DNA from: Dermatophagoides farinae
Lineage: Eukaryota; Arthropoda; Arachnida; Sarcoptiformes; Pyroglyphidae
Assembly (NCBI RefSeq): GCF_024713945.1
Contig: NC_134681.1
Span: 558,001-622,000 of the forward strand
Direction of reading: 5' to 3'
DNA: 64,000 nucleotides
Below, in pieces: positions 40,990 through 49,511 of this stretch. Position numbers and translations under genes: made by a program. Below the pieces are notes generated by a model. That model ran no database searches and was not told the origin of the DNA. It saw only the letters and a program-made list of their open reading frames with translations. Positions within the stretch are counted from its first letter, which is position 1; each line of letters starts with the position of its first letter.

Positions 40990-42895
40990 ATGAAAATGAT
41001 GAAGTTGGCAAAAAATAATAATGATTATCGTTGTCGTTTGGCCACCATCACCAGCAATATGACCGTTATAATGATGATTTTTTTCATTGTTTTTATCAAC
41101 GATTCAAATATCGTAATGGCAAATGAAATTCAATCAGCACCGTATTATATGCCATTTGATGAAGCACAAAATATTGATGATATATTGGCAAATTCAAGTC
41201 TTAAACATTTTATTCTTGCATTCATATTGGCACCAAACGATAGTCATGATTGTATACCAGCATGGAATGGCCTACGCAATCGTTTAGTTACTGAAGATAC
41301 ATTTATTGCTGAAATTATTGATAAAATCCGTGGCGCAGGTGGCGATGTTTCCATTTCATTTGGCGGTGCATTTGGCACGGAATTGGGCCATGCTTGCCAA
41401 ACGGCTGCACAATTGGCTGCTGCCTATCAATTAGTTATCGATAAATATAAGCTGACACATATTGATTTGGATATCGAAGGTGATAGCTTAGGTGCTGTTG
41501 TTGATGAACGACGTCGTTTTGATGCAATCAGAATATTGAAAAATAATGCTAGACAAAATGGTAAAAAATTATATGTTTCATTGACATTGCCGACAACAGT
41601 GGTCGGAATCAATGATGCTGGCAGAGAGGAAATCAAATTGGCCATTGAACGTCAAGCCGAAATTGACCTTTACAGTCTAATGTAAGTTTTTTTTGCGTTT
41701 ATTTTTTTTTCTATTCACTTATATCACCATTCACTATTATGCGTGTGTGTGTGTGTGTGTGTGTTTTAAACTTTTACTGAAATGATGACTGACTTACTGA
41801 CTAAGTTACTGAATACTGTTGCATTTGTTCCAAAAATTTTCAAGAAATCAAACAAATGAATTGAAATGAATGAAACGATGTCGCCAAAACAGAATGAAAA
41901 TAAAAATTATGATCTCACCTTGATTTTTCTTTTCTTTTGTTATATTTCACTATGGCTATAATGGTACGGCCATTGACCAATGGCCATCTCATTGTCATTA
42001 TCATCATGATGATCGTTTCATCTCATCATCTATTCATTTTCACAATGTTTCCATTCCCCGTTATCTTTGTTATTTGTGTGTGTGTGTGTGTGTATTTGTT
42101 TATGTCCTGTTATTATCCATTCCTCTTTTTTTTTATTTTTCTCCCTTATTTTACATTTTCATTGTTTCAATTCACAGGGCATTTGACTTTGGAGCAATGG
42201 CCAACAATATGGTTCATACGGTAATCACTGTCATGGAAGCATTCCATCAACAGATCAAATCTATTCACACGGATTGGTCAGATCAAAAAGTATATGAACA
42301 TACAGGAATGATATTAATGAATGGCCATACAGATCAACCAAGTGAATTGTTCTCACAGCAAACATTTGAAGAACTTATTCAATATGCATCAACACATGGA
42401 TTATCACGAGTTTCATTTTGGGCTATAAACCGTGATCGTCCTTGTCCTCCAGATCGTCAACATGGCTGGGCTGCCAGTTTCTGTAGCTGTATTGATCAAC
42501 AAGCATATGATTTTTCTCGAATTTTATCAAAATTTAAATCACAGGAAATTATTACAACATCAGTAACAACAACAACAACATCAACAACAACCAAAATACC
42601 ACAAACAACAACAGAAAAACATCATACCGAATCACGGCCAACAACAACAACAACATCAACAACCGAAATACCTCTAACAACAACGCAAAAACATCAACAG
42701 CCAACAACAACAACAACTCATCGTCCAGATAATGATGATGTGGATTGTTCCAAAGTTCCTGGAGGTGAAGGAATTTTTCCTTGCAAAAATGATATTCATC
42801 ATTTTATTGAATGTTCTAATGGTATCAAATATATTTTTTCATGTCCGGAAAATACTAAATTTGATCCAAAATTATTAAAATGTGTTTGGGAATAA
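40990..42895 (+). CDS. GH18 chitinase, bacterial-type catalytic domain plus CBM14
   Basis: CDS is join(40990..41681, 42178..42895), 469 residues; the 496-nt intron has a GTAAGT donor and TTCACAG acceptor, joining LYSLM to AFDFGAM. A signal segment spans about residues 24-44, ending VMANE; Met24 is an alternative start. The catalytic domain (~45-385) matches actinobacterial/Bacillus-type exochitinases, not the usual arthropod GH18 with FDGxDxDWEYP. It has CIPAWNGLR, GGDVSISFGG (118-126), THIDLDIEG with the presumed acid Glu163, SLTLPTTVVG, the AFDFGAM substrate-binding part, and SFWAINRDRPCP. A Thr-rich, probably O-glycosylated linker follows. The C-terminal CBM14 (residues 420-469) has cysteines 421, 433, 443, 453 and 466; the usual sixth is missing because the protein ends in CVWE. 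It should be secreted and act on chitin in food, peritrophic material or cuticle. Origin of the catalytic part by transfer from bacteria is inference. Confidence 0.9.
41682..42177 (+). other. Chitinase intron
   Basis: 496-nt phase-2 intron, much longer than the others here. It contains two (TG)n tracts (41742-41764 and near 42074-42093) and ends in a pyrimidine-rich stretch before TTCACAG. Confidence 0.85.
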
Positions 42896-47510: not shown

Positions 47511-48036
47511 ATGTTGAACATTATTAAAACAAAAAAAAACACCAAGATAATATCAAATTCAAAGTTTCCAATGTCTATGTCGAAGATCATTAATGATCAA
47601 TCACCAAAAATGATGTCGGCTGGACAATATAGTGAAACAAGTAGTGGTGATATGTATCTAGATAATCGTTATCTTTATGCTCGTAATAGTAAAGCAATCG
47701 GTGTATTATGGGCAGTATTTTCACTTTGTTTTTCCATCATAAATATGGTCGTATTTGTACAGCCACAATGGTTAGGCGATACGGCTACATCACGTGGTAC
47801 CGGCTATTTTGGTCTTTGGCGATCATGTCGCCTATTACAAGATGGACAAGATTTAATCTGTGAAGGACGATTAGATGATTTTAGTACAATACAGACACCT
47901 GCATTTCGTGCGGCAACCGTATTTGTTGGTCTTTCTGTTTGCCTTTCATCATTATGCGTATTATCAATGGTTTTATTCTTTTTTCTTCATTCATCAACCG
48001 TATTTCATGTTTGTGGTTGGATTCAACTATCATGCG
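47511..48036 (+). CDS. LHFPL-family tetraspan protein, 5' coding exon (partial)
   Basis: First coding exon, 175 residues plus one base, ending at a GTATGT donor. It matches the LHFPL3/4/5 group (lipoma HMGIC fusion partner-like; TMHS in fly). Seen: YARNSKAIGVLWAVFSLCFS and the rest of TM1 (62-83), then VQPQWLGDT, GYFGLW..C in the first extracellular loop, the family's DFSTIQTPAF (123-132), TM2 (about 134-158) and the start of TM3 (VFHVCGWIQLSC). Still to come are the end of TM3, the loop with the usual PDGW motif, and TM4. I did not find these downstream, so they are probably past the window. Vertebrate members are auxiliary subunits of GABA-A receptors or of the hair-cell transduction complex. 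The start is uncertain: Met1, Met21, Met23 and Met34/35 are all possible; Met34 has the best context. Confidence 0.88.
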
Positions 48037-49511
48037 GTATGTTTGAATGAAAATTTTTTTTTCTATTGTTTCAATCATTTCAATTTTAATTTTTTTTTGT
48101 TTGTTTGATACAAACAACAACAAATTGAACAATAATTCTTTTCCAATCTGGCAATGATAATTATAAACATGCTTAATTTGACATTGACAATAATAAGTGA
48201 GATAGTGTGCAAACAAACCCGTTAGCCATTCATTAATATTCATTATTATCATTTTCATATGCGAAAAAAAAGCCAATGCGAACAGTCAGCTATATCATCA
48301 GTTTGTGTTTGTTTGAATTTCGGTTCAATAGATCACAAACATATTTAAATTGATGATCGAATCGATCGATTGATGATCGATGGCACCGAACTGCTCCATA
48401 ACAAAATAAATGACAATTTTCTTTTCTATTTATTATGTGAAAATGTTTCAAAAAAGTTATTGTTATCTGTGTTTCTCTTTTTTTTTCTCAATCACATCAA
48501 CACAGGTGTATGGTATTAAATTGTTTTCGTTTCATTTCATTTGATTTTGTTGTTGTTGTTGTTTTTTTTTCGTGCCAATGATCGTGACATAAGGCGCCTG
48601 GTTTGATTATTTTGGTTTTGTTGTAGGTATTTATTTGGTATTATCCATCCATTATTATTAATATTATTATCATCATCATCATCATCATTATTATTATCAT
48701 TGTATTTGTTTGTCACGAATTGTTGTATACGAACAGATTTACATTCCGTTATTGTATTAGTGTGTGTGTGTGTGAGGTAAATCGTCGTTATTATTTTAAT
48801 CAAATTTTTTCTCCTTCATTTTTCATTCTTTTCTCATTATATTCAATGATTTTGAATGCGAATGGTTAAAAGTTGCAGTAGCAACTGATTAATAATCATT
48901 CACACACACATACACACAGACGTAGAATACGATGCTTTTTTTCTTTTGTTTTTTCATATTTTCGCAAATATTGATTGATTGTTGAGGCATTTTATTTCCC
49001 CTATTTCAATGAGTTTAAATTTTTAAATCTTCTTTCGAAAATGTTGGATTGATTGTTTTCTAGTTCCGAAATTATCTTGTGTTCATTTGCTAAAAATCTG
49101 TTGAAATTCTATTGAATTTGATAATTTACAATATCATATCATTAGTGTATAAACGTTTTTATATATTTATTTAAATTATAATTGAGATGCTCTACCACTA
49201 AAATAACTACCACTCTTGGCAATGATGATGATGATGATGATGTTGATCTTGATAATGATGATCATGATGAAAATAAATTTTCCATTTTGATCAACATTTT
49301 TTGCTTTCAATTCCGAATTTCAAATCGATTTGTTTTCTCACTTGATTTGCCTTGCTAAAAAAAGATGATAATGATTATTTATATATAATATTTATCTGGG
49401 TTATTGGATTGCCCGAAGCAAATGACAGTTATAATTATTATATATTATCGTGTTGAACAAACACATGAGAAGAAAAAAAAATTTATTCATTTTTTTTTGA
49501 ATCATTCAATT

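Follow-up and report, generated by a model that had tools for sequence, protein, structure and literature searches.

Two chitinase genes of bacterial type with introns and CBM14 domains in Dermatophagoides farinae, the catalytic domain of one probably acquired from an actinomycete

The joining of a GH18 catalytic domain of bacterial type to a chitin-binding CBM14 domain of animal type in a single gene of the dust mite Dermatophagoides farinae raises the question of whether such a gene truly belongs to the mite, where its catalytic domain came from, and how it was altered afterwards. The gene (gene A) lies in a stretch of 64,000 nucleotides analysed as a whole (the window). The original prediction proposed horizontal acquisition followed by domain fusion. 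On the comparison of sequences, it is very probable that gene A encodes a secreted nuclear mite chitinase whose catalytic domain is related to those of the Pseudonocardiaceae, a family of actinomycetes, and has been remodelled with an intron and a CBM14, and that a second gene of the same genome (gene B) is alike.

Gene A is one intact two-exon gene on the + strand (window 40990-42895), situated 599 kb into a contig of 5.4 Mb. Its spliced frame (40990-41681 joined to 42178-42895) encodes 469 amino acids and closes with a TAA stop, and the protein runs from a signal region through the GH18 domain and a Thr-rich linker to the CBM14. The parts are as follows:

40990..41681, + strand: exon 1, signal region and start of the GH18 domain (open frame, ungapped splice alignment)
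40990..41121, + strand: putative N-terminal signal region, residues 1-44 (sequence read by eye)
41137..41681, + strand: GH18 catalytic domain, part 1, from residue 50 (profile search, phmmer)
41455..41478, + strand: catalytic motif THIDLDIE, residues 156-163, with D159, D161 and E163 kept (57-row alignment)
41682..42177, + strand: predicted intron of 496 nt, GTAAGT...CACAG, phase 2 (sequence)
42178..42895, + strand: exon 2, remainder of the GH18 domain, linker, CBM14 and stop (open frame)
42178..42541, + strand: GH18 catalytic domain, part 2, to about residue 352 (phmmer, profile search, alignment)
42551..42739, + strand: Thr-rich mucin-like linker, about residues 356-418 (sequence; weak Pfam Mucin match below the cut-off)
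42743..42892, + strand: CBM14 (peritrophin-A), residues 420-469, five cysteines (Pfam, 32.8 bits)

A Met codon is split by the end of exon 1, which contains its first two bases. Judged by eye, the hydrophobic stretch at the N-terminus covers about residues 24-44, with M24 as an alternative start. The coexistence of GH18 and CBM14 in one two-exon gene is borne out by the open spliced frame and by Pfam matches above the cut-offs for both domains, namely CBM_14 at residues 427-468 (cut-off 22.1 bits) and a weak Glyco_hydro_18 match at residues 52-250 (31.9 bits against a cut-off of 29.6). The NCBIfam profiles gave no assignment for the protein. The five motifs said to mark the catalytic domain (CIPAWNGLR, GGDVSISFGG, THIDLDIEG, SLTLP and SFWAINRDRPC) are all found in gene A. 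Among the other frames of the window, one of eight was matched in Pfam; it is an exon-sized frame at 47511-48047 of the LHFPL family of membrane proteins (E 5e-29), an animal neighbour of gene A. A search of the PDB with one of the frames unmatched in Pfam returned no match.

The catalytic domain belongs to a subfamily of GH18 which we take to be the Pyrococcus-ChiA-like one. In phmmer searches gene A matched PDB 9buf, ‘Exochitinase 1’, a member of that subfamily, along residues 27-309 of a 310-residue query (E 1.1e-36), and 2dsk, a ‘chitinase’, at E 2.9e-25; the latter, with 3a4w and 3a4x, is presumably the archaeal enzyme of Pyrococcus furiosus, and although it shares the subfamily of both mite genes it is matched far better by B (E 1.1e-56). 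A PDB search with 271 residues of the domain, extended to E 10, gave E 0.14 for the best entry not belonging to the subfamily. The homology to 2dsk and 9buf extends over the whole domain, and it is accompanied by a DxDxE motif with both Asp and the acid Glu. The structures 9buf and 2dsk/3a4w/3a4x were left out of the trees described below. In the 57-row alignment D159 and E163 are present in every row and D161 in 56, and the first Asp position of DxxDxDxE carries Thr in 11 rows (A, B and nine others) and Asp in two, in agreement with the earlier remark that Thr at this position also occurs in the bacterial subgroup. As D159, D161 and E163 are kept and Thr in place of the first Asp is normal for the subfamily, the enzyme of gene A is probably active.

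The ordinary chitinases of the same genome, among which allergen groups 15 and 18 presumably belong, are likewise GH18 enzymes, and CBM14 matches lie beside some of them. Unlike gene A, they carry the FDGxDxDWE-type motif and reach 160-303 bits with PF00704 (best seven). This motif or a close form of it occurs in five of six ordinary GH18 fragments, and gene A was rightly described as lacking the arthropod signature FDGxDxDWEYP, with THIDLDIE standing there instead. Two near-identical ordinary GH18 genes (C8:3174586-3175506 and C8:3177017-3177940) lie about 1.5 kb apart, with end branches of 0.0048 and 0.

The closest known counterparts of gene A are actinomycete chitinases of a secreted type with no recognised binding domain, found in Amycolatopsis anabasis (L105) and Saccharopolyspora sp. 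HNM0986 (L036). Their catalytic domains are 50-52% identical to that of A and have the stretches APYYMP, THIDLDIEGD and LMNGHTDQPSELF in common with it. In contrast to A, they have no CBM14, an uninterrupted frame, a GC3 of about 0.9 and a second chitinase gene directly after them, and Pfam recognises in them only GH18, below the cut-off. Splicing out the 496-nt intron of gene A restores the bacterial motif with no gap, as IDLYSL-M-AFDFG (IDLYSLMAFDFG) against IDLYKIMAFDYG. The GC3 of gene A is 0.226, whereas the frames of its two closest named relatives have values of 0.894 and 0.903. The bacterial relatives also start with a hydrophobic leader (judged by eye), and hence the secretion signal need not be an addition made in the mite. 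The boundary between catalytic domain and CBM14 is free of introns in A as in B, so the point of fusion is now unmarked by an intron.

Bacteria do occur in dust-mite samples (PMC8487952), which lends some weight to a bacterial contaminant or a chimera of the assembly as the source of such a gene. Against this stand the intron and AT-rich codons of gene A, the CBM14 in the same exon as the end of the GH18 domain, the position inside a contig of 5.4 Mb, and the existence of another gene built alike. On the grounds of intron, composition, position and gene B, the contamination reading was dismissed, and its probability is close to nil. Gene A has an intron, the base composition of its host and a place on a host contig, and the claim that it is integrated in the genome stands.

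Regarding the origin of the catalytic domain, prokaryotic genome contigs were scanned with a six-row alignment, an earlier scan with gene A as a single sequence having found no match in them. The scan gave 530 confirmed matches, of which the best 80 were analysed, and all 80 were titled as actinomycetes. Among these 80, the highest identities were those of Amycolatopsis anabasis (52%) and Saccharopolyspora sp. HNM0986 (50%), followed by Actinacidiphila, Streptantibioticus and Streptacidiphilus at 43-46%. The original prediction had spoken of an actinobacterial/Bacillus pattern; its actinobacterial half agrees with the 52% identity to A. anabasis, but the Bacillus half is not supported, as the Bacillota rows seen were those of Lactococcus at 28-30%. 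Profile extraction, with a score above 60 and more than 60% of the profile covered, yielded 204 domains, several of which are the same gene fetched repeatedly. Rows shorter than 240 aa were dropped, as were those sharing 75% identity or more with a retained row, which left a tree of 57 rows. The tree comparisons cover prokaryotes and this mite genome only.

In the 57-row tree gene A stands beside the Pseudonocardiaceae-type rows L210, L036 and L105 (98/90), in a group of seven rows (97/91) within a group of 28 (100/99), the other 27 of which are bacterial. Gene A has a long branch (0.70), and its letter composition was marked as atypical. The addition of six ordinary GH18 fragments of the mite left the place of A unchanged (95/87, 95/89 and 100/100), and the fragments formed a separate group (100/100); in the free tree no grouping of A with these ordinary GH18s was seen. 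Likewise, a blastp comparison of A with the frames from eight loci of ordinary GH18s in this genome (L001-L008) gave E 3.0 at best, and neither A nor B is among the 29 places of this genome matched by PF00704 (62,435,336 bases in 22 contigs searched). A catalytic-domain search and a GH18 tree had been proposed as the check on a bacterial origin, and in both A falls among bacterial sequences. The horizontal acquisition and domain fusion suggested at the outset accord with the actinomycete nearest relatives, the nesting at 98/90 and the lack of CBM14 in the bacterial relatives examined.

The AU tests qualify this result. A position of A outside the bacterial A superclade of 27 rows, a group picked once the tree was known, gave p 0.025, and one outside its six nearest bacterial rows was not rejected (p 0.313). 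Joining A and B together to the ordinary GH18s of this genome was rejected (p 8.6e-41), and joining either gene singly was not (A, p 0.14; B, p 0.098). The ordinary mite GH18s form a very distant outgroup, with branches of 2.41, and an outgroup so distant can attach to any long tip; the single-gene results are therefore not read as vertical descent. These tests mainly ask where the root attaches, yet they limit the certainty of transfer. They leave some room for an ancient GH18 lineage of animals, passed down vertically and lost elsewhere, which bacteria resemble or took from animals, as does the composition of the compared set, in which this mite is the only animal. However, numerous actinomycetes have members of the subfamily, as do plasmids of Lactococcus, Yersinia, Cetobacterium and haloarchaea, and A and B occupy different places within it, and an old animal lineage is very unlikely. 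The transfer of the GH18 domain of A from an actinomycete, followed by the fusion of a CBM14, is well supported by relatedness and tree position.

A phage or virus was also considered as the source and was rejected: phage sequences searched with gene A gave no match, and among viral contigs none of the 12 pattern matches with the domain of A, and none of the 92 with alignment A2, was confirmed. As to plasmids, 24 of the 49 that carry a match to the GH18 subfamily are Lactococcus records, and both Lactococcus loci examined (L022 and L035) lie near a transposase of the IS6 family.

A search of the mite genome with gene A found the second gene:

C1:69890-71249 (L017), minus strand: gene B, GH18 and CBM14 with two introns

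Gene B lies about 70 kb from the end of the 9.17 Mb contig C1 and encodes 403 residues in three exons, separated by introns of 52 and 96 nt, with the same layout of signal region, GH18 domain, linker and CBM14. Pfam gives 18.1 bits for GH18, below the cut-off, and 37.9 bits for CBM14, above it. One of the introns splits the codon of the catalytic Glu, and the splice join matches the bacterial relatives. The identity of B is 28% to A, 56% to a gene on an Embleya plasmid and up to 61% to genes of the sampled genomes of the Saccharopolyspora family. In an Embleya relative of B, Pfam finds CBM_2 and fn3 in place of CBM14. Whole-genome searches with A and with B found these two as the only members of the GH18 subfamily, and in the tree B does not group with A. 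Duplication within the mite of one captured gene was tried as an explanation and set aside, since a single clade of A and B was rejected by the AU test (p 9.5e-5). The place of B inside its own clade varied or stayed open between tree builds. Gene B, as read from its sequence, is of a different bacterial subtype than A and appears to have been remodelled likewise.

The loci examined gave 3,251 frames of 120 aa or more, and a profile made from 21 CBM14 domains of the mite recovered two of them, the mite genes A and B. The CBM14 domain usually has six cysteines. There are six in B and five in A, where one is missing at the C-terminal end (42743-42892); one cysteine of A may thus be unpaired and its binding may be weak. 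In a comparison that took in loci covering 30 of the 78 places with a CBM14 in the genome, the best partners of the CBM14 of A were C8:1877973 and C3:3459611 (40.0 and 38.9 bits), and those of B were C1:2519824 and C8:2827288 (36.2 and 35.4 bits). Compared directly, the two domains share 18.9 bits over ten residues (E 0.001, a two-sequence comparison), and in whole-genome protein searches (A to E 1, B to E 10) neither CBM14 matched the other. The CBM14s of A and B look unrelated, and their independent fusion is the simpler reading, although a domain of this kind is short and evolves fast. Elsewhere in the genome, C7:1660585-1665160 holds a dense array of CBM14 matches, several with identical scores, which suggests a recent expansion of repeats. 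Among 14 control genomes, only that of the archaeon Haloferax volcanii had a CBM14 match over the cut-off.

The bacterial relatives of the two mite genes are neighbours in a number of actinomycetes. In a sample of 297 genomes of the Pseudonocardiaceae, the family of Saccharopolyspora HNM0986, relatives of A (E 1e-60 or better) were found in 17 and relatives of B (E 1e-55 or better) in 70. A B-type gene, 51-56% identical to mite B, lies directly downstream of A and in the same orientation in 13 of these 17, and the domain ends of the pair (L203-L216, L036) are 125-183 nt apart. A more distant family member, 33-34% identical to B, follows in three others, and in the last no family member was found within the 1,500 downstream bases examined. 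In Amycolatopsis anabasis the gene downstream is another one of the A superclade (37% to A), and on a replicon of Nonomuraea about 840 bases separate a gene like A (35%) from one like B (49%). In the sample from the family of Streptacidiphilus, a relative of B (E 1e-55 or better) occurs in five of 297 genomes. By sequence likeness, A and B of the mite correspond to the partners of a conserved adjacent gene pair of the Pseudonocardiaceae.

It is this conserved pair that makes a joint transfer attractive, in which an adjacent A-B pair entered a mite ancestor once, after which its two genes came to lie on different chromosomes and each was fused to a CBM14 of its own. The adjacency in 13 of 17 genomes agrees with it, as do the end branches of similar length (A 0.70, B 0.62) and the adjacent pair of genome G426, which is the nearest by path to both A (1.01) and B (0.84) in the 57-row tree. 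Denser trees of B, however, put other and mostly stand-alone rows nearest to mite B; the mite genes lie on different contigs; and stand-alone B genes reach 61% identity, against 51-56% for the paired ones. The AU test gave p 0.083 for B with six rows of operon-B genes, and p 0.028 when G426 and G428 were added. A single transfer of the pair is given a little less than an even chance.

Two separate transfers from different actinomycetes, each gene being then fused to a CBM14, would fit the different bacterial clades of A and B (one clade rejected, as above), the closest identity of B to stand-alone genes and the difference between the two CBM14s. Such transfers require the coincidence that both sources came from one conserved gene pair, and the position of B, which differs between builds, does not favour them. 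A grouping of B with one stand-alone clade was disfavoured (AU p 0.025), a grouping with the Embleya-type clade was not (p 0.18), and B outside all bacterial B rows gave p 0.275; the groups for these tests of B were picked after the first trees. Two transfers can be regarded as an even chance. A further tentative proposal is that both genes of the pair were captured in a single event, scattered to different chromosomes and independently given introns and CBM14s of their own, so that a bacterial unit of two enzymes for degrading chitin would have become two animal enzymes.

Under the favoured account of an actinomycete-derived, remodelled mite chitinase, an actinomycete related to the Pseudonocardiaceae of today would have supplied the catalytic domain of gene A, as its sequence relatedness and place in the tree suggest. 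By comparison with the bacterial relatives, the gains made after the transfer are the 496-nt intron, the base composition of the host, the Thr-rich linker and the C-terminal CBM14. From what is known of the family, the most likely mode of action of A is that of a GH18 enzyme of Pyrococcus-ChiA or exochitinase type, in which E163 would serve as the acid, D161 would steer the N-acetyl group of the substrate and the CBM14 would hold the enzyme on insoluble chitin. The digestion of dietary fungal chitin is its likely job, and moulting or turnover of the peritrophic matrix is a possible one. The horizontal gain of digestive enzymes is known in mites (PMC12105342).

In the sister species D. pteronyssinus, 48 putative horizontally acquired genes were reported, including the chitinase derpt05g01940, whose expression is up to 3.7-fold higher in juveniles (PMC12105342). 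This gene is, like A and B, a chitinase described as horizontally acquired, and it may or may not be orthologous to one of the two. The idea of a horizontally acquired mite chitinase is therefore already in print (PMC12105342), and what is added here is the second captured gene of another subtype together with the bacterial gene pair. In the open-licence literature searched, no description was found of the two actinomycete subtypes, of the bacterial pair or of a repeated CBM14 fusion. A peptide match led to the assignment of an exo-chitinase in the faeces of Tyrophagus to Bacillus cereus (PMC4764834); given that mites encode chitinases of bacterial type, this assignment may merit re-examination.

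The remodelling of a foreign gene can be read twice in this one genome, in two bacterial subtypes each provided with introns and an apparently unrelated CBM14. Whether foreign enzymes are repeatedly fused to binding domains of the host is hence directly testable across mites, and the correspondence to a bacterial pair allows the joint capture of partner enzymes to be asked by the sampling of other mites. If they are secreted, the proteins of A and B would also be candidates for the catalogues of dust-mite allergens.
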